Shown here: positions 1,134-51,223 of the stretch, one piece after another
Position numbering within the stretch: position 1 is the stretch's first letter
Layout: every line of letters starts with the position of its first letter
DNA from: Rubidibacter lacunae KORDI 51-2
GTDB lineage: Bacteria; Cyanobacteriota; Cyanobacteriia; Cyanobacteriales; Rubidibacteraceae
Length of the DNA: 51,829 nt
Direction: 5' to 3'
Assembly (NCBI RefSeq): GCF_000473895.1
Contig: NZ_ASSJ01000051.1
Coordinates: 1 to 51,829 of the forward strand
Made by a program: the position numbers and the translations under genes
Notes under the pieces: model-generated
Told to the model about the DNA's origin: nothing
The model's database searches: none
What the model saw: only the letters and a program-made list of their open reading frames with translations

Positions 1134-4100
1134 ATGCCACCTGTCCGGGGACTTTCAGAGCCGAACGAGAAGACCGCCTCCAGGAAGTGCAAGCCCTCCC
1201 AGCGCTGTTGGGGTTTATCAACAGCAGTTGTTTTGGCGATGACGATCGCGCTAGCAGGAGGTGATGCGACCCGGGCGGAGGCATGTAAAGCTGAAGAGAT
1301 ACAAAACTGGGTTGAGGAACTCGAACAAGGAGGGGGAGGCGAGGAGCGAGCGAGAATCGAGCTGATCGATTGTGAAACAGATGCGATCGCCCCGCTGAGA
1401 AAAAAACTAGCGGTCAATGATTGGCAGTCCAACCCGCAGAAGTGGGAACTGCAGGAAGCGCTGCTCGAAGTCTTGACAGAGATTGCTGGCGATCTTGCCG
1501 AAGACGCACCGATGCTGGAGAAGGAGAAACTGAAGTCGGCGATCGCAAGGCTGAAGGACGGAATCTCTGTCCTGGAAAAGTTTGAGGAAGAGTTCCAGCA
1601 AACTCCTCCCAGCGTATCGGGGAACGCATTCGATACGCCTGAAAAGCGCACTGCTTATGCGGCAGCTCAAATCGCAAAGCTGCGACCGCCCCTGAGAAAA
1701 CTGCAATGGTGGTTGTGGTGGCAGCAGTTTGGGTTGTGGGTGGGTGGCGGCGCGATCGCGGTGCTGGGCTACGGCAGCGTGCTCTGGCTGCAGCCGCTTT
1801 GGTTGTTGCGGCTGCCTACCAAGTTCAAGATTCCGAAAACGGAAATCGAGCTCACGATGGGGATGATGCGCCGGCTGACATATCGGCCGCGAGTGCTAGA
1901 TCGGTGGGTGGCAATCCACCTTACGACAGCTCGGCAGGAGTTTGAGAAGAAGGATACGGTGCGCGAGCGGGCGGTGCATATCTCAATTCCTGCAAGGCTG
2001 GATAAGGAGTTATTGGTAGAGCCTAGCGGTAAAGACTTGCGGGGAATTTGCGCAAAACCGAGGTTCTGCGTGTTAATCGTGGCGGAAGGCGGATCGGGAA
2101 AGACCAGCCTGGCCTGTCAAATTGCCCTGTGGGCGATGTCAGATGACCCGGAGGAGCGCCTCTGCAAGCACCGAATGCTTCCAATATTGATCGAACAGGA
2201 ACTCCCCGTAGTTGAGGAGGGGAAAGACTCACTGTTGGAGGCGATTCGGGGGCAACTCAACGATTTGGTACGTGCAGTATCCCCGATACAGCCGGAGTTG
2301 GTAGAGCAGCTATTGCGTCAGCGTCGTCTGTTAGTGGTGGTAGACCACCTGTCGGAGATGACAAAGGCAACTCGCGATAAAGTTCGGCCTCAACAACCCG
2401 AGTTCGCTATTAACGCGTTGGTCGTAACCTCCCGGCTCGATGAAAAGTTGGGCGGTGTCAACCGAACACGCCTCGAACCGTTGCGGGTGGAAGGCGATCG
2501 CTTGTCGAGTTTCATCGCCGGATATTTAGAGCGACTCGGGAAACGCGACCTGTTTGAGGATGAAGACTATTTCAGTGCATGTCGCCGCCTATCCCGCATG
2601 GTGGGTCAGCGCAATATCACCGTCTTGCTTGCTAAGCTTTTCGTCGATCAGATGGTCGAGCAACAGCAAGGGGCGGGGGGGACGCTGCCGGCGAACGTGC
2701 CGGAACTCATGTTGAGCTATCTCAATCAGCTCAATCGCACGATCGAACCGGCCAATCGACGCGATCGCCTCCAGGTGCAGAAAGACGCGCAGATCGTCGC
2801 CTGGGAGTGTCTGAGGCAAACGTATCGACCCGCGCCAGCGAACAAGGAAGATGTCTCCAAAGCGTTGAGAAGAACTGGAAGCACTACAGAAACTGCCCAA
2901 GAGCAACTGGACTATTTGGAAACTCGGTTGCGCTTGCTGCAGACCCTGGAGCCGGGGGACAAACTCCGCATCATCCTCGACCCATTAGCAGAATATTTGG
3001 CAGCTTTGTGGCTGGTGGGTGACTGTCGAGATGGCTCGGACGATCGCTGGCGGGACGTTCTGGACTCCGTTGACAAGGTTCTAGAAAGCACAAACGATGC
3101 GCCCGAAGCCATTCGAGGTTTCTTGCTGGCCGTGCGCGATGCTAGCTTGCTCAAGAAAAAAGAAGCTCGGGTTCCAGACTGGGTGCCGGAAGAACTGGCG
3201 CGAAAAGCGGGCATCGATCCAGAGGAACTGCGCCAAATTGAAGAAAAACGCCGGATCCGCTTGCTGATTTCCGAACTGTCTGCCCCAGAGTTAGACTACC
3301 GAATTCGCGCGGCTGAAGACCTGGGCGATCGCGGTGCTGCAGCGGCGATCGCGGTGCCGAACTTGCTCGGCATGGTCGAAAACCAGGAACAGAGCGTCGA
3401 AGCCAGAAAAGCGGCAGCAACCGCTCTGGGCAAGCTGGGAGCCAACAGCAACGCGCTGCGAGACCAGATTGCTGATCGCTTGGTGGCTCTGCTCGTGGAT
3501 GAAGCCGAAGCGTCTTCTGCGGAAGATGACGATCGCCTTATAGTGAAGCGTAGCGCCGCTGAAGCGTTGGGGTGCATGCAGGCTGCGCGGGACGAATTAA
3601 TTGATATTCTCGAAAATACCGCTCGGCCTCTCACTGTGCATCAGGGATGCGCGCGGGCTTTAAGTCGGTTTGATGCTGAAAGTGGCGCGCAGATGCCGGT
3701 GCTGGTTGTGCGTATACAGAACGGCCAAACAACGACCCAAGTGCGGCACGTCCGGGTTTGGAAAGAGTCCTTGCCAGAAGGACTAACCCTCGACCTTGTC
3801 GATATTCCAGGCGGGAGTTTCTTGATGGGCTCGCCGCCTGATGAGGCCGGACGAGATGTGTACCAAAGCGTGTTTCCTGAAACCGAGGGACTGGATGTGG
3901 AGGCGCAACATAAAGTTGCGATCGCATCGTTCAAAATGAGTCGGTGTCTCATAACACAAGCTCAGTGGCGGACAGTGGCTGCTTTGCCTCGAATAAAGTA
4001 CGACCTCGACCCCGATCTGCCTCGATTCAAAGGAAACGATCGCCCCGTTGAGAACGTCAATTGGTATGAAGCATTGGAATTATGCGATCGCCTCTCAGCC

Positions 4101-4559
4101 CATACCGGACGACCCTACCGGCTGCTGAGCGAGGCGGAGTGGGAGTATGCCTGCCGTGCCAGATCGACGACGCCATTTCACTTTGGCGAGACAATAGATG
4201 TCGGGTTGGTGAATTACGATGGCAACTACACTTATGGGGAAGGAATACAAGGAGAGTATCGCCAGGAAACTACGGAAGTAGGTATGTTTGGGGTGGCGAA
4301 CGCCTTCGGGTTGTCAGATATGCACGGCAACTTGTGGGAGTGGTGTGCAGACCACTGGCATCCTTCCTACGAGGGTGCGCCGACGGACGGCAGTGCTTGG
4401 TTAACAGAGGACGAAAGCAGCTTCCGCCTGCTGCGCGGCGGTTCCTGGAGCAACCTTCCGTGGTACTGTCGCTCGGCGCTCCGCTACCGTTACAACCCAG
4501 ACGTACGCAACGGCATAAGCGGTTTCCGTGCGGCGTGCGACGCGCCCTGGACCGGATAG
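1134..4559 (+). CDS. Membrane-anchored NACHT NTPase with HEAT repeats and C-terminal FGE-sulfatase (C-lectin-like) domain
   Basis: The protein has 1141 residues. Residues 24-51 resemble a signal peptide or membrane anchor ending in a small-residue AEA motif. A helical region follows, then a hydrophobic segment at about 198-228. A STAND/NACHT NTPase comes next, with Walker A AEGGSGKT at 317-324 and Walker B LLVVVDH with D404. Residues about 705-850 are HEAT-like helical repeats. Residues about 883-1141 are a formylglycine-generating-enzyme/SUMF1-type domain, with IPGGSFLMGSP, RPVENVNWYEAL, RLLSEAEWEYACRA and HGNLWEWC. The end, LRGGSW to GFRAAC (1100-1135), matches the form of DGR variable regions. 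In related proteins the NTPase and repeats act as a sensor and the C-lectin fold as ligand-binding surface; a role in recognising invaders or self/non-self is inference. The ATG at 1134 has only a weak ribosome binding site. It stands alone, with repeats downstream. Confidence 0.88.
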   Translation: MPPVRGLSEPNEKTASRKCKPSQRCWGLSTAVVLAMTIALAGGDATRAEACKAEEIQNWVEELEQGGGGEERARIELIDCETDAIAPLRKKLAVNDWQSNPQKWELQEALLEVLTEIAGDLAEDAPMLEKEKLKSAIARLKDGISVLEKFEEEFQQTPPSVSGNAFDTPEKRTAYAAAQIAKLRPPLRKLQWWLWWQQFGLWVGGGAIAVLGYGSVLWLQPLWLLRLPTKFKIPKTEIELTMGMMRRLTYRPRVLDRWVAIHLTTARQEFEKKDTVRERAVHISIPARLDKELLVEPSGKDLRGICAKPRFCVLIVAEGGSGKTSLACQIALWAMSDDPEERLCKHRMLPILIEQELPVVEEGKDSLLEAIRGQLNDLVRAVSPIQPELVEQLLRQRRLLVVVDHLSEMTKATRDKVRPQQPEFAINALVVTSRLDEKLGGVNRTRLEPLRVEGDRLSSFIAGYLERLGKRDLFEDEDYFSACRRLSRMVGQRNITVLLAKLFVDQMVEQQQGAGGTLPANVPELMLSYLNQLNRTIEPANRRDRLQVQKDAQIVAWECLRQTYRPAPANKEDVSKALRRTGSTTETAQEQLDYLETRLRLLQTLEPGDKLRIILDPLAEYLAALWLVGDCRDGSDDRWRDVLDSVDKVLESTNDAPEAIRGFLLAVRDASLLKKKEARVPDWVPEELARKAGIDPEELRQIEEKRRIRLLISELSAPELDYRIRAAEDLGDRGAAAAIAVPNLLGMVENQEQSVEARKAAATALGKLGANSNALRDQIADRLVALLVDEAEASSAEDDDRLIVKRSAAEALGCMQAARDELIDILENTARPLTVHQGCARALSRFDAESGAQMPVLVVRIQNGQTTTQVRHVRVWKESLPEGLTLDLVDIPGGSFLMGSPPDEAGRDVYQSVFPETEGLDVEAQHKVAIASFKMSRCLITQAQWRTVAALPRIKYDLDPDLPRFKGNDRPVENVNWYEALELCDRLSAHTGRPYRLLSEAEWEYACRARSTTPFHFGETIDVGLVNYDGNYTYGEGIQGEYRQETTEVGMFGVANAFGLSDMHGNLWEWCADHWHPSYEGAPTDGSAWLTEDESSFRLLRGGSWSNLPWYCRSALRYRYNPDVRNGISGFRAACDAPWTG
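4431..4540 (+). other. Candidate DGR variable region (VR) at the 3' end of the NACHT-FGE gene
   Basis: Codons 1100-1132 read LRGGSW, then a run with variable-looking residues, then GFR. In known DGR targets with FGE domains the template repeat carries AAC codons at the diversified sites. Here those sites read AGC, AAC, CTT, TGG, TAC, CTC, TAC, TAC, AAC, GTA, AAC, GGC and AGC. Nearly all keep a non-adenine third base and differ at the first two, as adenine mutagenesis of AAC (or AGG for TGG) would give. The GC-rich end and a CCCTTTGC pyrimidine-rich stretch after the stop resemble the initiation-of-homing region in cyanobacterial DGRs. No template repeat or reverse transcriptase is visible in this window, so any retroelement must lie elsewhere. 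Confidence 0.55.
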
Positions 4560-4729
4560 CCCTTTGCTATTTTTCCATCGAGCCCGCGTGATTGAAGGAG
4601 TGGTAAAGCCGCCTACAGCATTTACCAGGCTAGTGAGGTACACATGTTTTTTGGATTGGCTAAATGGCGGGGGTTCAAAAAGTGAGAGCGCACCTCACGA
4701 GACCGATAAATGCTGTATCTTTCCCCTAT

Positions 4730-4989: not shown

Positions 4990-5241
4990 ATGACCATTCG
5001 AGAACTGCTCGAAGCTGCCCAAGAACTAAGCCAGCGCGATCGCATCCGGTTAGCCAGCGAGCTCATGCAACTCGTCGCCCGAGAACTGGAAGACCCCGAG
5101 CCCACGTCATCCCCGTCCACACCGTCCGAGGATCCTTTCGTCGGTCTTTTCTCTGGGTCTGCGGAACTTGCCACTCAAGCTGAAGAGATCCGCCAGCAAG
5201 AACTGCAAACCTCGTCTGGCTTCACGTGGAAGGCGTATTAG
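4990..5241 (+). CDS. Probable antitoxin of a VapBC-like module
   Basis: This 83-residue protein starts at ATG 4990; the open frame runs further upstream, but there it overlaps the decayed repeat. The N-terminus (ELLEAAQELSQRDRIRLASELMQLVARELED) is a charged amphipathic helix, and the C-terminus has PFVGLFSGSAELATQAEEI followed by GFTWK. This layout is typical of short cyanobacterial antitoxins encoded before PIN toxins: an N-terminal helical part and a C-terminal tail that would wrap the toxin. Its stop overlaps the toxin gene by 16 bp, so the two should be translated together. The family assignment rests on layout, partner and my memory of similar cyanobacterial proteins. I see no clear DNA-binding fold. 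Confidence 0.72.
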   Translation: MTIRELLEAAQELSQRDRIRLASELMQLVARELEDPEPTSSPSTPSEDPFVGLFSGSAELATQAEEIRQQELQTSSGFTWKAY

Positions 5242-5639
5242 CGGACACCGGCTTTGTTGTGGCTTTGGTCAACCGCAGCGATCGACGCCACCGCAACGTC
5301 GTCCCTATCTATCAACAGTATCCGCAGATTCCGCTCCCCCAGCTGGTCTTGGGAGAAGTTGCTTACCTCATTGGTAGAGATGCAGGCATCGCCACCACAG
5401 TTCGGTTCCTGAAGGGCATACCAGCCAGCCGATTTGAGACGATTTTTGCAACTGACGCTGACATTGCCCGCGCTGCAATGATTCTGGAGCAATACATCGA
5501 CAGCAAGGTCGATTTCGTTGATGCCTGCATTATGGCGATCGCCGAAAGGCTCGACATCCCAACCGTGCTGACTATCGACCGCCGCGACTTCCAGATTTTC
5601 AGACCGAGACATTGCCAAGGCTTTATCCTCAAACCGTAA
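5226..5639 (+). CDS. PIN-domain ribonuclease toxin (VapC-like)
   Basis: The protein has 137 residues from a GTG start inside the antitoxin gene. PIN-domain landmarks are present: ADTGFVVALVNRSDRRH near the N-terminus with the first catalytic Asp, the acidic residue in LGEVAYL, DFVDACIMAIAERL with the central acidic pair, and TIDRRDFQIFR near the end. PIN toxins are Mg-dependent ribonucleases that cut tRNA or mRNA when released from their antitoxin. Length and residue spacing are those of an intact enzyme. The adjacent antitoxin and the overlap support a complete type II module. It lies between decayed copies of an unrelated repeat, consistent with an accessory island. Confidence 0.88.
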   Translation: MEGVLADTGFVVALVNRSDRRHRNVVPIYQQYPQIPLPQLVLGEVAYLIGRDAGIATTVRFLKGIPASRFETIFATDADIARAAMILEQYIDSKVDFVDACIMAIAERLDIPTVLTIDRRDFQIFRPRHCQGFILKP

Positions 5640-36271: not shown

Positions 36272-36772
36272 GTGGCAGTAGCAGCTGAAGTATCCTCAGC
36301 GGACAGTTTCGCAATTTCGATCGCGCCCCTATCTTTGGCAAAGGTATACGAACTTGCCGAAACTCCCGCAAATGGGGCACTGGTAGTGATGAGCGGTACT
36401 GTGCGCGACAATACCGAAGGGAGAGCTGTGGCATACCTGGACTACCAGGCATACGAGCCGATGGCTCGGGTTGTCTTCCAACAAATTGCTCAAAGGATGC
36501 GCGAGCGATGGACGGACATTAACCGTGTAGTCATTCACCACCGTATTGGTCGTTTGCGTGTTGGGGAAATCAGCGTTCTCGTAGCAGTGGGCTGTCCGCA
36601 TCGCGTGGAAGCCTTTACTGCCTGCCAATACGCCATCGATACACTCAAGCACAATGCACCGATATGGAAGAAGGAATTCTTTCTGGGCCCGGACGGTACC
36701 GAAAGCGGTGAATGGACTCAGGGCTGCCGGGTTAGCGATCTAGGCGGGTCTGCTGCCGGAACCTACAGCTAA
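36272..36772 (+). CDS. moaE: Molybdopterin synthase catalytic subunit
   Basis: From GTG 36272 (VAVAAEVSSADSF) the protein has 166 residues, matching family length; GGGAGA lies upstream. The frame is open to TTG 36176, but that part is not MoaE-like. Motifs are GALVVMSGTVRDNTEGRAV, LDYQAYEPMA, VVIHHRIGRLRVGEISVLVAV, HRVEAFTACQYAIDTLK and APIWKKEFF with the active-site lysines. With MoaD it inserts sulfur into precursor Z to make molybdopterin. No moaD is adjacent. Confidence 0.92.
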   Translation: MAVAAEVSSADSFAISIAPLSLAKVYELAETPANGALVVMSGTVRDNTEGRAVAYLDYQAYEPMARVVFQQIAQRMRERWTDINRVVIHHRIGRLRVGEISVLVAVGCPHRVEAFTACQYAIDTLKHNAPIWKKEFFLGPDGTESGEWTQGCRVSDLGGSAAGTYS

Positions 36773-36823
36773 CCACACTCGGTAAACGCGATCGCTCTCC
36801 GCGGCGAGTTATGAAAATCAAGC

Positions 36824-37261
36824 TTACTGGTTGAGTTCGGCATAACGCTTGAGCTCGCGAGCCATGCGCCGCAGACCGATTGCCTCGTCCTCGCGGACGA
36901 AGGGTATCAGTATCGGAGCCAGGAATCCCGAGAAGTGATGGGCATGGACGTACTTCGTGCGCCGGAAGCCAATTTCTTGGAGTTCGAAAACCGTTTCGCT
37001 CTTGAGTCCCGGAATTGACGCCTGCCATTTCAAACATATCTCTGGCAGTACTAGCATCACGCGCGGCTGAAACTCGGTTTTTTCCTCGTGGGCAAGTCGG
37101 CGCATCGATAACAGCACGCGTTTGCCTTGCAGCAAAGGCTGCGAGGCGTCGCCGTCAAACAGAAAGGTATTCCACAGTTGCCACTGCTCCTTCGCAAGCA
37201 GCAAGTCCCAGACGACCGACTTGGGAGCGTTGATGTCAATTTCAGTGTAGAGACTGGCCAT
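36824..37261 (-). CDS. SRPBCC (START-like) family protein
   Basis: The protein has 145 residues from ATG 37261. The fold is suggested by ASLYTEIDINAPKSVVWDLL at the N-terminus, LLAKEQWQLWN, ETVFELQEIG, YVHAHHFSGFLAPIL and a C-terminal helix RRMARELKRYAEL. Such proteins bind lipids or other hydrophobic ligands in a deep pocket. No partner can be inferred. It is convergent with moaE. Confidence 0.82.
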   Translation of the reverse strand: MASLYTEIDINAPKSVVWDLLLAKEQWQLWNTFLFDGDASQPLLQGKRVLLSMRRLAHEEKTEFQPRVMLVLPEICLKWQASIPGLKSETVFELQEIGFRRTKYVHAHHFSGFLAPILIPFVREDEAIGLRRMARELKRYAELNQ

Positions 37262-37445
37262 GGAGGGCAATCCTTCAACAAGGCAGTGGGTAAAGACCGA
37301 CGCGATCGCAATTGTTATCGGGTTGCGCGCGGCTTAACTTTATAATGTTGCATCTGGAACTTGCAACTGCTGTCCACCACCCCCGGTCGACTGCCGACTT
37401 CTTCCCTTTGAGTACGCGTTAGCCACCCCATCCATAGCGAGCTGC

Positions 37446-38843
37446 ATGGTCAACCTCACGCCGAATCCGAGTTACAGCCTCACCATCCATCTGCGCTATC
37501 CCAATCGCGCTGGCATGCTCGCCGCTGTGACAAGCGCGATCGCCGATGCCGGAGGCAACCTAGGACCGATCGGGCTAATCGAACAAAACCGCAAAACCTG
37601 TTTGCGCGAGGTCGTAGTCAATGCTTACAGCACCGAACATGCAGAGAAAATCACCACAGCTCTTAAAAACCTTCCGGATATAGAAATCCTGAACGTTTCC
37701 GATCGCACGTTCGACCTTCATCGCGGCGGTAAAATCTACATTCAAAGTCGCATCCCGCTGCAATCGCAAGGCGACTTGGCAATGGCATACACTCCCGGAG
37801 TCGGGCGGATCTGCAAAGCCATTCACGAGCGACCGGACGACGTCTTCAATTTAACGATTAAAGGCAACACGATCGCCGTTGTGACCGATGGGAGCGCCGT
37901 GCTTGGCTTGGGCAATCTCGGTCCGGAAGCCGCACTGCCGGTAATGGAAGGTAAGGCGATGCTGTTCAAAGAATTTGCCGGGCTTGAGGCGTTTCCAGTT
38001 TGTTTGGCAACTCAGGATGCCGACGAGATCGTCGCGATCGTTAAAGCAATTTCACCCGTTTTTGGCGGTGTCAATCTGGAAGATATTAGTGCACCCCGCT
38101 GCTTCGAAATCGAGCGCAGACTGCGCGCGGAACTGGATATCCCAGTTTTCCACGACGACCAACACGGTACGGCAATTGTGTCGCTAGCCGCTCTCTTCAA
38201 TGCGCTAAAGGTCGTACAAAAAACTCTCGATACGGTAAGTATCGTTATTAACGGTGCAGGAGCAGCTGGTGTTGCCATCGCGCGTTTGCTCGTGCGGGCG
38301 GGAGCGCAGCGCGAGCGCATCGCCATGTGCGACTCCCAAGGCATCATTTCAGCCAGCCGCGTCAATCTGACTACCCAGAAACGCGAATTTGCGATCGCCG
38401 CCAGCGGCTCGCTAGCGGATGCCATGAAAGGGGCCGATATTTTCATCGGTGTGAGCGTACCGGGCGTGGTGTCGCCGGAAACGATCGACTCGATGGCACG
38501 GGATTCGATCGTGATGGCGATGGCCAATCCCATTCCTGAAATCCAGCCGGAATTAGTTGCCGATCGCGTCGGCGTGATGGCCACCGGACGCAGCGACTAT
38601 CCAAATCAAATCAATAACGTATTGGCGTTTCCGGGCGTGCTGCGCGGAGCCCTCGATTGTCGGGCAACCGCGATTACGGAAAACATGTATCTTCACGCCG
38701 CTCAAGCGATCGCGGCGCTTGTCAGCTCGCACCAGCTCGATCGCGAGCACATCATTCCCTCGGCATTTGACGAGCGCGTTGCGCCAGCAGTCTCGGCAGC
38801 AGTGCAGCAAGCCGCTCGCGAAGATGGGGTTGCTCGTACTTAG
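37446..38843 (+). CDS. NAD(P)-dependent malic enzyme with N-terminal ACT domain
   Basis: The protein has 465 residues. Residues about 10-85 are an ACT domain (YSLTIHLRYPNRAGMLAAVT), usually an amino-acid-binding regulatory unit. The malic enzyme part follows: AMAYTPGVGRICKAI, VTDGSAVLGLGNLGPEAALP, MEGKAMLFKEFAGL, FHDDQHGTAIV and the Rossmann loop INGAGAAGVAIARLL. It converts malate to pyruvate and CO2. Only the short bacterial catalytic form is present, without the phosphotransacetylase domain of MaeB. The ACT fusion is a known cyanobacterial type. Confidence 0.93.
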   Translation: MVNLTPNPSYSLTIHLRYPNRAGMLAAVTSAIADAGGNLGPIGLIEQNRKTCLREVVVNAYSTEHAEKITTALKNLPDIEILNVSDRTFDLHRGGKIYIQSRIPLQSQGDLAMAYTPGVGRICKAIHERPDDVFNLTIKGNTIAVVTDGSAVLGLGNLGPEAALPVMEGKAMLFKEFAGLEAFPVCLATQDADEIVAIVKAISPVFGGVNLEDISAPRCFEIERRLRAELDIPVFHDDQHGTAIVSLAALFNALKVVQKTLDTVSIVINGAGAAGVAIARLLVRAGAQRERIAMCDSQGIISASRVNLTTQKREFAIAASGSLADAMKGADIFIGVSVPGVVSPETIDSMARDSIVMAMANPIPEIQPELVADRVGVMATGRSDYPNQINNVLAFPGVLRGALDCRATAITENMYLHAAQAIAALVSSHQLDREHIIPSAFDERVAPAVSAAVQQAAREDGVART

Positions 38844-41295: not shown

Positions 41296-41498
41296 GCGCG
41301 CCTCAACCTCCACTCCTCAATACTACAAATGTAACGACCGCGACCGAACAACGAGGCGATCGCCTCCACTACCGCACGGCAGCATTTTAGCAATGCGACC
41401 CTTGAGTCACTCCAAGCAGACAGTACTTGAAGCCACCGATCTTTATTCATAACTGCTCGGACAAACTTCTTGAAGCGGGAAAACAGGTTGTCCCACAC
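41292..41498 (-). CDS. Small ORF translationally coupled to the di-heme peroxidase
   Basis: This 68-residue frame starts with GTG 41498, preceded by AGGAG at good spacing, and its TGA overlaps the ATG of the peroxidase gene as ATGA. The sequence (MWDNLFSRFKKFVRAVMN, WLQVLSAWSDSRVALLKCC, AVVEAIASLFGRGRYIC) is amphipathic and basic. No family is recognised. Coupling plus a ribosome binding site make it more credible than a chance frame, but it could be only a leader. Confidence 0.42.
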   Translation of the reverse strand: MWDNLFSRFKKFVRAVMNKDRWLQVLSAWSDSRVALLKCCRAVVEAIASLFGRGRYICSIEEWRLRRA

Positions 41499-44153: not shown

Positions 44154-47100
44154 ATGCTACCCAAGAGTTCTGCCGCTCGTTTTGTCCGCCGGATCGCACA
44201 CCTGCTTGGCTCAGGTGTGCGATCGTTCGCAGGTCTGCTCGCCCGCGCCCTGCTGCGATTGCTCAATCGCCCGCTCCACTCGAACCGCGGACGGAGGGCG
44301 CGGGCGGGATTCGCGCTACCGACAGCCACAATGGTTTTGTTGGTTATTTCTCTGTTGATAGGAGCAATGGTAACCCGTTCCTCAGAGCGCGCGAACGAAG
44401 TTATTGTCCAGCGACAGCTGGCAAAAGTTTCCAACGCCGCCAGCCCCGCCATCGAGCGTGCCAAGGCGAAATTAGAGTTTCTTTTCGAGCGCGACCCACG
44501 AATACCTGCAGCTATACCAGCTGAAGAATTGCTCAAGAGCCTCGTAGCAAATGATGGCATAGAGGCAGCGGCACTCCCAACAGATCCCTACACGTTGCCG
44601 GGCGAAAAGCGACTTAATCTGGATGGAAATCCAGCCACTATTGAGAACGCTTGGCTTATTCAAGAAGATATCGACAACAATAAAACTATCGACTCAGGCG
44701 AAGGCGTTCGTTACTCGATCAATATGCTTTATGGCGTCGACACCAACGATGACGGAGTTAACGACGTCGATCTTTCCAGTAGTAACTTAGATAAAGCTGA
44801 ATATAATGTCGTCCGCTCGGGGCCAATCGCAGTGGGCGATGCCACGGGTCGCTGTGCTTCAGGGGGTCGCGGTCTCGACGGAGGGTGGTTTGAGGTTTCC
44901 GGCGCGAGGCTGCGCAAAAATTTCCAAGTTGATGCCGTTGCCAATCGTCCGAACAGCGTTACGCCCGTACTTGCAACCTTGGAATTCCAACAAGATCGTC
45001 AGCTAGACCGTGGCAACGCTTATGGTGCATGGTTTCGTGCCGATCTAGAGGTGACTCCAGGCAGCGACTTCAGGTGGAATGGGACGATGCACACCGAAGG
45101 CAGTGTGTTTATAGGTCAGACTGACGGAGGAAATTTTTTGAATGATACCAGACTTTACCTCATAAGTTCTGATGAATCGTGTTTCTACGACCCCGGGGCA
45201 TCTCAAATCACCATGGCCCAGAACCTGGACCCAAATGGGGATACTATTTTTCAAGGGCAAGCGATTTCGGGAAGATTGCGATTCAATGACTTTAATCAAG
45301 TTGATACTTTCATTGACATACATCCTAAGGATGATACTGGGCCATCTGGAGATACTCTTCAGCAGCCTTTTATCGGTGCTACGGACTTGGTCCTTGCCGA
45401 TAATAATGAAACACCCTTCAATTACACGCTCGACCCAATTGTTTTATTTACGCAAGACGTATCGCAGTCGAGAAATCCGGGCGATCCAGAGAATGACGGC
45501 AATCGCGATAATACCCAGTTTATGGGTAACAAACTCTATAACGATCTTGAAAATCCTCGCATTCTAAATACGAATATTCCCCGCCCCTATGTTGACGACA
45601 CATACCGTGCTGACGACAGATGGGGACCAGAACCCGTCTATAACAGAGATATTTCGACTTCCGTAGCAGACTACGGCCAGACGATCACCGTTGCCAATGC
45701 TGGTAGCACCGAGACTTTTGACGAATTGACTCGAGACGCAAATCCGATCCTGCCCGAAAGCGCCGGACTGGATGGTTATTGGGAACGTCGCGCCTCCGCT
45801 CAAGGATTGCGTACGATTGTTGGCCAGCGTTTAGAGTTGGGGAATCCATTTGGTTGGCGCAGTAATGACGAACCTTTGTACCCCCCAACAGATATCTTTC
45901 CAGATCCTGGGGTTACCGGAGCTTCTACGGTCGCTGCCTCTGATAATCGAAACGAGCAAATTCAGCGCCGAACCTTACGCGATAACCTAGCGGCGGTTCA
46001 ATCCACGGCAATCTACCACTATCTCGAAGATGCCGAGTTTCCGGTTGCATGCATGTCAACAACCGTTCATCCCGGCACCTTCAAAACCTTCACAAACAGC
46101 ATTGACTTCAACCAGCTTACCTACAGAGATAGCACCGGCACTAATATATCTTCACGCAGCAACTTCTTTTTTGGTAAGGGAACTAACGGTTGGGAATACG
46201 CCCCCCCTGCCAAAGGTACCTTTGCTAGTGACGTTGCTAATGCAACTAGCGAACTAGGGAAGGCGCTGCGCAACCTAGCTTACTTTGCAGGCGATCCCGA
46301 CGGAGCCTTCCCGCCCTTGCAGGAGGTCAGTGCGGGAGCATCACTTTATCCCGTCACCCACCCTTACCCCTATCTGTCTATGTGGGGAGATTTTTCCGGG
46401 TTACGCCGGGCTTTGAGTCTTCTAGATAGTGGCACCCCTTACATCGATCTCAGTTTGGCCGATAAAACCACTCTTCAAACAGCATCTTGTACGCTGGGCA
46501 TCTTGGCTCGCAATCTAGTAGAGCTTGATAATTTTGACTACCAAGAAAGCGCCACTTCCGCTGCCGCCCTCATTGTTAATAACCCAGTAAATCCGTTGGA
46601 AGACGAGCGCCTTTTTGGTGCCCTTGCGCTTCTGACCGACGGTATTGGTGAAGGTAATGGCGAGGTCGTACTTGAGGGGGATTTTGGACCAAAGGACCCA
46701 ACTAATCCCCAGGAAATCTTAATTGATGGAACAACAACCCTTCGTAAAATCGATCTAAGAGAGGAGGACTCTTCAGCTCCACTTCCTGGCGATGATACTG
46801 ACGACAATGATATCCGCATGTTCATTGATAACGGCAGCCCCGCTGGGGAGGTTCAATATGTCTCAGTCAATACAGAGGATCGACCTTACACAACCCCTTA
46901 CGAGGCTTACAACACAGCTATCAACTTTATCGAGCCAAGTTCTTTCAAAGGGACCGTAGATGATCTTCGACTTGCCCGCCGTTTTCTGCGCTTCTTGCAC
47001 ACGCGCGAGCAAGTGCGTCGCGACCGCGAACATGGATTTGAAAATGGCCTGCCGTCCGACGGATTTTGCTCAGAAGGTGGTCCCTCAGGCACGGGTTTCG

Positions 47101-49109
47101 GAACGGGTGTCGGCGATATCGATGCAAATAAGGCTGATTTATTACGAATGGCAGTTTGCTCTGATATTCCTAAGTTTCCAGCGCTGCATTTCCTGTTCCC
47201 GGTTTTTTCGGATACCACCACCAGCAATTTCGAGTACACAGGGTCTCCCGTTGGTGCCAAAGTAGCTGATGATGACGACGAACCCTACTTAAATCGCAGC
47301 ACCCCTGATGGTGAGACAAACATTCCTGCGGGAAGTTGTAATGGCAGGAATCCGGCAGACTATATCTGTCGTGTGAATGTAGGTATTCGCTTTAACAGAG
47401 TCAATCCTTCTGATGTCGCCCTGAACCCTCGCGCCAATGCAACTGCAGCTAGCTGGTCCACCCCCCTGGATCCTGGCAACTCCACTGGTCCGAACGTCAT
47501 CTTTACGGGCTATGACGGAGGGGCGCCCGACAGCCCCGTATCTATCGCCTTCCAGGACAAGGCATTTTTTGATGGTCGCCAAATGATGGAAGTAAGGACT
47601 CTCGACTACGACCTCGAATTGTTGCGTAACAATACTGTCGGCGGTGGAGATTTCTGGCTACCCACCAGCGGTGTGGTCTATGCATTCCGCGAGGATGCCG
47701 TGCGCGAAGATGCCATTTCAAGACCGCGCCGCGCTGCATGGTCTGATTGCAATACAGAAGTAAAGCTCACGGGTTTTGACCCGCTTTCACGAAGTGTGCA
47801 AGGTGCGAATGCACAGTGTCGCATGCTCGTTACCGGAAACCAACCTACAGATCCTCCAGTACTGGATTCGGGAACGGCGAGCGCGTCTTATGGTATCAGT
47901 CCAAAGCCGGTTGATTTCTTTATGGATCCCGAGCGACGGGCACATGGGTTCCGGTTGCGCCGGGGTGCCGATCTGCGTCGCGGAGGCGCAGATGTTGCGA
48001 GTAGCTTGTCTTTTATCACCGACAATTCTCTATACATTCAGGGAGATTTCAATCTCCACACGGATGGGTCCAACCGGCTAGAGGAGTTTAAAGGGAATGG
48101 TTTGCTCAAAGACAATTACTCAAACTTTTACCTTCGGACGGCAAATGACCTTGACGACAAATTTGCCGACCCGGAAGGCGATCGCTGGCGGGTTGCCGAG
48201 CTTCTGGCTGATAGCATTACCATTCTGACCGAGACGTTTTGTGATGGAGCAGTTGAAGGTGGACTCCGCTCTGTTCTTGGTTTGAGTAGCAGCCCATACG
48301 AAATATGCACCAATAGTGAGTCTTCGTCTTATGCCAGCGGTCGTTGGGAAGGCGATCCCCAAACAACGGGCTCCTTCACGGGTTCACTCGAACGGTGGTA
48401 CCGCGAGAATCCCTTTGACGTCGATCAAGGTGGGTTTCAGTCCAATTTCGACTTCCGGAGAAAAGCAACCTACAGCTCTCCAATTTTCGTAGATCGTGAC
48501 GGTCGCTTCTACTACATTGAGAGTTCGACGAGTACTTATCAAGATCCTGGCGATGCAGGGTCAGCGAACAACCCCCTGGATGGCTGGAGCGAATACTACG
48601 GCGATGTGAATGACTACTTAAACGGCACAGGCGGTTTAGGAGATGTAGCTCGAGTTAAAATTCAGAGACCTGCGAGTGGCACCGATATGACAGTCAACGC
48701 AATTTTGGTATCCGGAATCACTCCTTCTCGGTCCGGCCAAACTGATGGTGGATTTGTCAATTTCCCGCGCATGCTTCAGGACTGGGACACTAATAGAGCT
48801 ATTTTGCGAATCAACGGAGCGTTTATTCAGCTTAACTACAGCACCTCGGGGACAGGACCGTTCGATCAAGAACTTCTGGAGTCGGACTGGGTTGGAGGTA
48901 ATCCAGGAAATCTTGAATTTGATGAGTTTAATGGCTACTACACACCACCCATCCGTCGCTGGGGATATGATATAGGCTTGCAATACCTTCCACCGGGGCC
49001 AGTTAGCGAACGCTTCGTTACTGTCGGGAGCCCGCGCACCGAAACCTATCGGGAAATTCGCGCGGACGATCCCTACATTGACAGACTTTTAAAAGGAGTT
49101 CCGAATTAA
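44154..49109 (+). CDS. hpsA: Hormogonium polysaccharide biosynthesis protein HpsA homologue
   Basis: The protein has 1651 residues. The N-terminal 45 residues are basic. A single membrane segment follows (GFALPTATMVLLVISLLIGA, about 56-75), with a pilin-like RAG-F start but no Glu at position 5. The long exported part is rich in Asp, Asn, Gly and Ser (TNDDGVNDVDLSSSN) and has short acidic stretches such as EDSSAPLPGDDTDDND, which may bind Ca. It is followed by two pseudopilin genes in the order known as hpsA-B-C from Nostoc punctiforme, where the locus is needed for polysaccharide secretion and gliding with type IV pili. The length matches. The codons are less HIP1-rich and AT-richer than neighbours. 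Exact role is unproven. Confidence 0.85.
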   Translation: MLPKSSAARFVRRIAHLLGSGVRSFAGLLARALLRLLNRPLHSNRGRRARAGFALPTATMVLLVISLLIGAMVTRSSERANEVIVQRQLAKVSNAASPAIERAKAKLEFLFERDPRIPAAIPAEELLKSLVANDGIEAAALPTDPYTLPGEKRLNLDGNPATIENAWLIQEDIDNNKTIDSGEGVRYSINMLYGVDTNDDGVNDVDLSSSNLDKAEYNVVRSGPIAVGDATGRCASGGRGLDGGWFEVSGARLRKNFQVDAVANRPNSVTPVLATLEFQQDRQLDRGNAYGAWFRADLEVTPGSDFRWNGTMHTEGSVFIGQTDGGNFLNDTRLYLISSDESCFYDPGASQITMAQNLDPNGDTIFQGQAISGRLRFNDFNQVDTFIDIHPKDDTGPSGDTLQQPFIGATDLVLADNNETPFNYTLDPIVLFTQDVSQSRNPGDPENDGNRDNTQFMGNKLYNDLENPRILNTNIPRPYVDDTYRADDRWGPEPVYNRDISTSVADYGQTITVANAGSTETFDELTRDANPILPESAGLDGYWERRASAQGLRTIVGQRLELGNPFGWRSNDEPLYPPTDIFPDPGVTGASTVAASDNRNEQIQRRTLRDNLAAVQSTAIYHYLEDAEFPVACMSTTVHPGTFKTFTNSIDFNQLTYRDSTGTNISSRSNFFFGKGTNGWEYAPPAKGTFASDVANATSELGKALRNLAYFAGDPDGAFPPLQEVSAGASLYPVTHPYPYLSMWGDFSGLRRALSLLDSGTPYIDLSLADKTTLQTASCTLGILARNLVELDNFDYQESATSAAALIVNNPVNPLEDERLFGALALLTDGIGEGNGEVVLEGDFGPKDPTNPQEILIDGTTTLRKIDLREEDSSAPLPGDDTDDNDIRMFIDNGSPAGEVQYVSVNTEDRPYTTPYEAYNTAINFIEPSSFKGTVDDLRLARRFLRFLHTREQVRRDREHGFENGLPSDGFCSEGGPSGTGFGTGVGDIDANKADLLRMAVCSDIPKFPALHFLFPVFSDTTTSNFEYTGSPVGAKVADDDDEPYLNRSTPDGETNIPAGSCNGRNPADYICRVNVGIRFNRVNPSDVALNPRANATAASWSTPLDPGNSTGPNVIFTGYDGGAPDSPVSIAFQDKAFFDGRQMMEVRTLDYDLELLRNNTVGGGDFWLPTSGVVYAFREDAVREDAISRPRRAAWSDCNTEVKLTGFDPLSRSVQGANAQCRMLVTGNQPTDPPVLDSGTASASYGISPKPVDFFMDPERRAHGFRLRRGADLRRGGADVASSLSFITDNSLYIQGDFNLHTDGSNRLEEFKGNGLLKDNYSNFYLRTANDLDDKFADPEGDRWRVAELLADSITILTETFCDGAVEGGLRSVLGLSSSPYEICTNSESSSYASGRWEGDPQTTGSFTGSLERWYRENPFDVDQGGFQSNFDFRRKATYSSPIFVDRDGRFYYIESSTSTYQDPGDAGSANNPLDGWSEYYGDVNDYLNGTGGLGDVARVKIQRPASGTDMTVNAILVSGITPSRSGQTDGGFVNFPRMLQDWDTNRAILRINGAFIQLNYSTSGTGPFDQELLESDWVGGNPGNLEFDEFNGYYTPPIRRWGYDIGLQYLPPGPVSERFVTVGSPRTETYREIRADDPYIDRLLKGVPN

Positions 49110-50128: not shown

Positions 50129-51223
50129 ATGAAATCTTCATCAGTCAACTACCTTCTCGAGCAACTCGTGCGGTTGCAGCAGCGATCGCGCAGTCACCAA
50201 CGCGGATTCACTCTACTTGAGTTGATTGTTGCAACGCTGATGTCGCTTCTCATCGTTGGAACGCTCCTGTCCATGGTGATAGATGTATTCCGAACGAACA
50301 CTAGCGAGGAAGTTCAAACCGAGACTCAGCAGGAGATTGATGCAGCTCTTGACTACATTGCAAGGGATCTTCGAGAAGCAGTCTTCGTGTATACCGGAGA
50401 CGACATCGAAGATGATCGGATTATCCCGCAAGACGATGGGGATGTAACTGTTGACAGTTTTGGAGCACAGCTCGCAATTCCCAACAATTCTGGCGAAACA
50501 GTCGTCTTAGCGTTGTGGATAATTGAAGATCTACCCTACAACGGGGATGATGATGTAGCCAATTTATTACCGAGCGATACCGGTAAATGTCCTACAGGTT
50601 CTTTAGAAGTTGAGTGCAAAGGGCTTGGCACCGAGCGTCGGGCTTTCTCTCTGGTGTTTTACACGATCGATACTAGCGTGGAGCCTACCTGGGAGGGCCC
50701 CGCTATAATTCGTCGTACCATCCTGCGTAAATACGATGCTCTTGATAGCAGCGGAGCGTTCGACCTAGCGAAAGGCTATGTAGACCCTCGCAAAGATGGA
50801 AGCTCGTTTAAATTCTGGCCATTTGACAATGAGGGGATCGATCTCCAGGGTGACAGTATCGACTATACCAAAACTAAACGATGGGCTCTTGTAGATCGCG
50901 TCGACGATCCAAACAATACCGACCCTAACGTATTGGTGCCAAACTGCCCGGCGGGATACTCACGATCTCCGAGAGCAGGAGGTAGCATCGCCCACACTAG
51001 TTTCTATGCCTGCATCCGTAATCGCCTGGAACCGAATCAGATCGTCGTCAATCAACTTCTAGGCGGGGATGAACAAGCTTTTAACTACAGTGGCGGAAAC
51101 CAGGATGTATTTGTCTACTTGCGTGGCAATCCTGGCAAAGCACCTAACGGTTCTTCTTTGCCATTACCAACATTGCAAACACAGGTCATAACCCGCGGCG
51201 TTATTCAGAAGTTGAATAATTAA
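50129..51223 (+). CDS. hpsC: Pseudopilin HpsC homologue
   Basis: The protein has 364 residues. The leader ends QRG, with cleavage before FTLLELIVATLMSLLIVGTL, Glu at position 5. The mature part has EEVQTETQQEIDAALDYIAR, a PulJ/GspJ-like helix, and a long soluble domain. It belongs to the minor-pseudopilin (GspJ-like) group and fits HpsC by position and length. It starts 33 bp after hpsB, so the two are probably co-transcribed. Confidence 0.86.
   Translation: MKSSSVNYLLEQLVRLQQRSRSHQRGFTLLELIVATLMSLLIVGTLLSMVIDVFRTNTSEEVQTETQQEIDAALDYIARDLREAVFVYTGDDIEDDRIIPQDDGDVTVDSFGAQLAIPNNSGETVVLALWIIEDLPYNGDDDVANLLPSDTGKCPTGSLEVECKGLGTERRAFSLVFYTIDTSVEPTWEGPAIIRRTILRKYDALDSSGAFDLAKGYVDPRKDGSSFKFWPFDNEGIDLQGDSIDYTKTKRWALVDRVDDPNNTDPNVLVPNCPAGYSRSPRAGGSIAHTSFYACIRNRLEPNQIVVNQLLGGDEQAFNYSGGNQDVFVYLRGNPGKAPNGSSLPLPTLQTQVITRGVIQKLNN

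Follow-up and report, generated by a model that had tools for sequence, protein, structure and literature searches.

A probable former target of a diversity-generating retroelement on an NLR-like receptor of Rubidibacter lacunae

NACHT-lectin fusions and remote targets of diversity-generating retroelements (DGRs) are both already published; the initial annotation of this locus had named FGE-type DGR targets and NACHT fusions as known. The gene analyzed here carries a target domain of the FGE type on a NACHT scaffold. In Dore et al. (2024, PMC10907252), the DGR-diversified NACHT-CLec proteins of Thiohalocapsa PB-PSB1 DGR 3 and related loci, described as putative antigen sensors, share with it a NACHT STAND NTPase, a C-terminal C-lectin domain of the DGR-target type and a genome that has several targets of this sort. 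Trans targets were called there on perfect matches to the template at non-adenine positions. A looser rule, at least 50% nucleotide identity, defines remote variable proteins in the work of Vallota-Eastman et al. (2020, PMC7517822), whose cyanobacterial examples resemble our gene in a C-terminal CLec far from the reverse transcriptase (RT) and in more than 50% identity to template and cis targets. Bacterial NLR-related bNACHT proteins (for instance bNACHT25, PMC12169576) likewise have a NACHT C-terminal helical domain behind NACHT. FGE genes elsewhere in the genome, on contigs C41 (T1) and C49, adjoin MoxR-like and vWA genes and in this resemble the MoxR-vWA ternary conflict systems of Kaur et al. 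(2020, PMC7159879).

The window is the entire contig C51 (G000:C51; 51,829 nucleotides) of a 4.15 Mb genome assembled in 99 contigs and 99.63% complete. The receptor gene and its parts are as follows.

1134..4559, + strand: ORF of 1141 aa with signal-like segment, transmembrane segment, NACHT, NCH4, HEAT and FGE (ORF list and profile searches)
1200..1274, + strand: N-terminal hydrophobic, signal-like segment (by hydropathy alone)
1728..1808, + strand: probable transmembrane segment, residues 199-225 (by hydropathy alone)
2073..2420, + strand: NACHT domain, residues 314-429 (below the Pfam cut-off; Walker-like motifs)
3090..3221, + strand: NCH4 (NACHT C-terminal helical domain 4), residues 653-696 (Pfam)
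3258..3473, + strand: HEAT repeats, best HEAT_2 stretch (Pfam, region scanned alone)
3792..4535, + strand: FGE-sulfatase/C-lectin-like domain (Pfam and FGE matches of the genome)
4434..4547, + strand: homologue of DGR variable regions and of template TR1, contig C41 (alignment)
4557..4576, + strand: stop codon and remnant, about 18 bases long, of a pyrimidine tract found behind DGR targets in relatives (flank comparison)

The ORF coordinates were borne out, and so were the HEAT and FGE parts of the NACHT-HEAT-FGE architecture proposed for the protein. FGE-sulfatase (residues 887-1134; 142.8 bits, Pfam cut-off 23.3), NCH4 (69.1 bits, cut-off 27) and HEAT_2 (34.5 bits, cut-off 27.7, with 3240-3740 scanned in isolation; the whole-protein Pfam scan found no HEAT) all score above their cut-offs, and NACHT itself stays under Pfam's 26.7 with 20.9 and 22.8 bits. 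The motifs GGSGKT at residue 319 and VVVDHL at 401 we take, from their look, to be Walker A and Walker B. By sequence, the FGE domain matches PvdO (5hha, 5.8e-32) and also the Treponema variable protein 2y3c (E 5.7e-19), a DGR product of known structure. PADLOC gave no match for the receptor protein. A partial Uma2 ORF lies upstream at 229-546 and a PIN-domain ORF just downstream at 5226-5639; the left contig end is only 1.1 kb from the start of the gene, and the sequence further left is unseen. Elsewhere in the window, positions 44154-49109 hold a 1651-residue ORF without Pfam match at E<=1e-4, near an ORF (50129-51223) with a near-threshold N_methyl motif.

A search of the whole genome with RVT_1 (E<=1) gave a single match, on C41, and no RT on C51, in agreement with the earlier remark that no retroelement lies nearby. 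The C41 RT is an open frame (36407-37531, 374 residues) with a YADD motif, directly preceded by an Avd gene (NCBIfam DivGenRetAVD 132.1 bits, cut-off 80; bAvd 73.2, cut-off 40). Template TR1 lies at C41:37802-37916 and is the only undeleted one, a second C41 template at 41319 carrying an internal deletion. The genome-wide check proposed with the initial annotation thus finds a template and an RT, whose absence would have spoken against its proposal. Four FGE targets, T1-T4, flank the two templates, and T1 comes after two genes, one MoxR-like AAA and one VWA_CoxE. The genome has 10 FGE matches in all. FGE also occurs in a caspase fusion on C7 and, on C49 (23686-31911), in a WD40-TPR fusion and a short gene (the pair C49a and C49b), which adjoin MoxR-, vWA- and caspase-like ORFs by eye. 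The variable-region comparisons do not include the FGE proteins of C1 and C79, which are of other kinds by eye; C1 served as tree outgroup. A pattern search for further templates returned nine known copies and one match with 3 mismatches on C82, T4 not being listed, and none matching the C49 pair. T1 and the C7 gene (stretches C41:33779-34906 and C7:8947-11117) continue with identical sequence after TAGCCCTTG and then near-identical transposase-like ORFs, apparently IS110-like; the C7 copy is followed by an apparent Avd fragment (by eye).

Relatives of residues 200-865 were found in 69 of the 388 genomes of the order, our own counted, whereas the other eight members of the family gave none. 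Among the 29 best-matching of them, FGE is part of the ORF itself in 2 (L165 and L172), and L069 has NACHT and FGE in two neighbouring ORFs. A C41-like RT (37% identity) is present in G175, the genome of L165, and at E<=1e-10 none was found in G367 (L172) or G388 (L069); the search for Avd gave nothing in G175 and G367 and a score under the cut-off in G388. NACHT relatives that bear FGE are thus also seen where no C41-like DGR was detected. FGE is an optional sensor on a common scaffold.

The LRGGSW-to-GFR ending, previously read as the pattern of DGR hypervariable regions, was located as an RGGSW...GFR block at 4434-4547. The block belongs to the conserved FGE core; it is also present in, for example, L069, L145 and L172, from genomes in which no C41-like RT was found. 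The alignment of the receptor variable region with TR1 is gap-free over about 115 bases, with differences at about 14-15 of the 25-26 adenine sites and at 16 of the 89 non-adenine sites (p=0.0005). This adenine bias is not specific to TR1, because it also arises against foreign templates (p<0.05 for 8 of 9 from other genomes), and we rejected it as proof of diversification. When 14 templates of other genomes were compared alongside it, the genome's own TR1 was the nearest of the 15 to the receptor region at non-adenine sites, for which shared codon usage may be the cause. None of the 14 being nearer, a template of another genome was rejected as the source.

Nucleotide identity between the receptor variable region and those of T1-T4 is 0.61-0.71 over 38 codons, and the region reaches the at least 50% identity of a remote variable protein (PMC7517822). 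At non-adenine sites, by the rule of Dore et al. (PMC10907252), neither the receptor region nor any of T1-T4 (8/89, 7/89, 3/89 and 18/89 mismatches, respectively) matches TR1 perfectly, which for T1-T4 suggests that the C41 DGR is slow or quiescent. Since T4, which adjoins the DGR, is as distant as the receptor region, distance to TR1 alone is no proof of retirement. T1-T3 and C7 retain the GC-rich 3' end that reads GCGTGCGCCGCGCCGA in TR1, which T4 and the receptor gene have altered. With the C49a region, the receptor region shares 84% identity over 51 bases.

According to the initial annotation, the variable codons look like AAC or AGG with the adenines changed and the last base kept. Indeed, 12 of the 14 expected variable codons end in C or T, the two deviating ones, GTA and ATA, lacking the template's final C; with amino acids matched, the excess was not significant, codons at degenerate residues ending in C/T in 6 of 8 cases against 4.4 expected (p=0.20). 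None of T1-T4, C7, C49a and C49b passes this test singly (p 0.083-0.284), so that it leaves any one gene undecided (low power), and C/T endings were discarded as proof of diversification for a single gene. Pooled, these seven genes have 31 of 36 codons ending in C/T against 20.6 expected. The endings are as common (65/70) in 5 genes labelled as coming from genomes without a C41-like DGR, an imperfect label in that G002 and G175 hold other RTs.

Homing overwrites non-adenine bases, and co-targets are therefore expected to share synonymous codons in the variable region. Shared codons number 21/23 for T1-T2 (upstream 76/138), 24/26 for T2-T3 and 21/22 for T1-C7; among T1-T4 and C7, 6 of 10 pairs gave p<0.05, a level missed by T2-T4, T3-T4, T3-C7 and T4-C7. 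The two C49 regions are significantly homogenised with each other (17/20; upstream 63/118). The receptor gene showed no significant homogenisation with any of the seven others taken singly (p 0.08-0.45), sharing 9-14 of 17-21 codons (0.53-0.67 vs 0.34-0.51 upstream). Pooling without amino-acid matching gave p=0.04 (C41 group), 0.03 (C49) and 0.003 (all). We relied on a stricter version with sites permuted within amino acids (nine tests, p values uncorrected), in which the receptor gene scored 0.64 vs 0.49 when compared with all seven (p=0.008), with p=0.10 for the C41/C7 group and p=0.029 for C49; positive controls gave 0.0002-0.016 and negative controls (C49 against the C41/C7 group) 0.21 and 0.26. 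The signal of the receptor region is faint, and perhaps old. An FGE tree of 92 rows was computed by a quick method with the variable region removed; 46 of its 89 inner branches are open. It joins T1-T4 and C7 in one clade (99) and C49a/b in another (97); the receptor gene falls outside both, its own position being unsupported.

Homing in Bordetella is described as being aided by a GC-rich inverted repeat that lies behind the variable region (PMC3240598; also PMC12875486); for the reaction itself, identity stretches of at least 8 bp are reported to be enough (PMC3240598). FGE-type targets often carry a pyrimidine tract (CCCTTT...CTCTTTTGCCCTTT) after the stop codon, sometimes with a short GC-rich inverted repeat. 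Literature searches on 'polypyrimidine' with DGRs and on Rubidibacter with DGRs returned no report. All 14 targets that adjoin an RT or template have a pyrimidine fraction of at least 0.70 over the 45 bases after the stop, as do 43 of 71 other relatives, compared to 2.6% of 420 other ORFs. The receptor gene, where TAGCCCTTTGCTATTTTTCC is kept and the rest of the tract lost, has a fraction of 0.58 and no stem, and a homing element was not recognized after its variable region. Within the genome, T2 and T3 reach 0.82, T1 0.60, C7 0.62, C49a 0.64 and C49b 0.49, T4 being missed by the motif of the scan; T1 and C7 fall below 0.70 because of an insertion. Stop codons followed by CCCTTT occur in 27 of 107 FGE ORFs (overlapping loci, the receptor gene itself included), in 5 of 861 other ORFs and in 0 of 125 others from stretches of the same genome. 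An HMM of the downstream tract gave no match at 4557, a weak result as T2 and T3 themselves reach no better than E 0.036 and 0.14. Compared to the tract, the hairpin counts for less, since a perfect stem of at least 5 is found in 4/14 targets beside an RT or template, 25/71 relatives and 16% of other ORFs, and in none of the seven own-genome rows scanned, the receptor gene, T2 and T3 included. L069 and L165 keep tract and hairpin; L172 has a fraction of 0.71 and no hairpin. The tract with an occasional GC mini-hairpin was seen after FGE stops in L069-L152 and at C41:35911 and 38895. This tract is possibly a homing element of cyanobacterial FGE-type targets, and may serve as a marker for orphan ones.

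We consider that the FGE domain of this NLR-like receptor is probably a former DGR target that is now fixed. For retirement speak the mismatches to TR1, a genome with one RT and no further template found, the place outside the clade of T1-T4 and C7, the lack of significant pairwise homogenisation, the reduced tract behind the stop, and the FGE-bearing NACHT relatives of genomes in which no C41-like DGR was detected. Between a retired target and a gene that was never diversified, the tract remnant and the faint pooled homogenisation (p=0.008) point to the former, and the 84% identity with the C49a region likewise argues against the latter. An ordinary FGE-fold sensor of that kind, which we regard as rather unlikely, would owe its likeness to DGR targets to family resemblance, because the compared cyanobacterial FGE genes share the RGGSW...GFR core and C/T-ending face codons; it would fit the frequency of such endings in the genes labelled as lacking this DGR, the amino-acid-matched codon test of the receptor gene and its place outside both target clades. 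Also to be set against retirement are the codon pattern, which is no proof of past diversification, the equal distance of T4 from TR1, the 8 bp or more of identity reported to be enough for homing in Bordetella, the tract fractions below 0.70 of T1, C7 and C49a, and the homogenisation test against the C41 group alone (p=0.10, several tests having been made).

Present diversification in trans, as inferred in the initial annotation, was not upheld. An active remote target, either diversified slowly by the C41 DGR or served from an assembly gap by another template and RT, seems very improbable to us and was rejected as the main reading on the mismatches to TR1, the weak homogenisation and the truncated tract, to which the mutated 3' end and the single RT in a 99.6% complete assembly are added; these weigh against an RT frame that is open with its YADD motif, an Avd over the cut-off, the rank of TR1 as nearest of 15 templates, and the unseen sequence to the left of the gene. 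Were the gene still diversified in trans, its membrane-anchored, NLR-like product would have a cytosolic sensor that is hypervariable, and would be a bacterial analogue of an adaptive receptor.

As a retired target, the receptor would be a membrane-anchored, NLR-like STAND protein with a NACHT switch, a HEAT linker and a C-terminal FGE/C-lectin sensor module drawn from a cyanobacterial pool of DGR targets. An older or lost template may once have diversified the FGE domain; homing into the gene would then have stopped, and the binding face would now be inherited as any other sequence. By analogy with these families, the NACHT switch would open when the lectin face binds its ligand, and the opened switch may trigger a membrane-linked response, probably against phage. 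This suggests that a sensor which used to be hypervariable can stay on in NLR-like receptors in fixed form. Active and retired remote DGR targets can be separated by the non-adenine template match, codon homogenisation and the non-coding tract after the stop.

Compared to the described systems, the receptor gene has no MoxR-like or vWA neighbours among the ORFs scanned, unlike the MoxR-vWA systems (PMC7159879). Relative to bNACHT25 (PMC12169576), it has NCH4 and not NCH1, no nuclease domain was found and PADLOC does not match it. From the remote variable proteins of PMC7517822, where the word NACHT is absent from the main text, it differs in its decayed tract and template match. Compared with the NACHT-CLec sensors of Thiohalocapsa PB-PSB1 as presented in PMC10907252, for which alone there is metagenome evidence of diversification, its template match is imperfect at non-adenine sites, and it adds a membrane anchor, HEAT repeats and NCH4.
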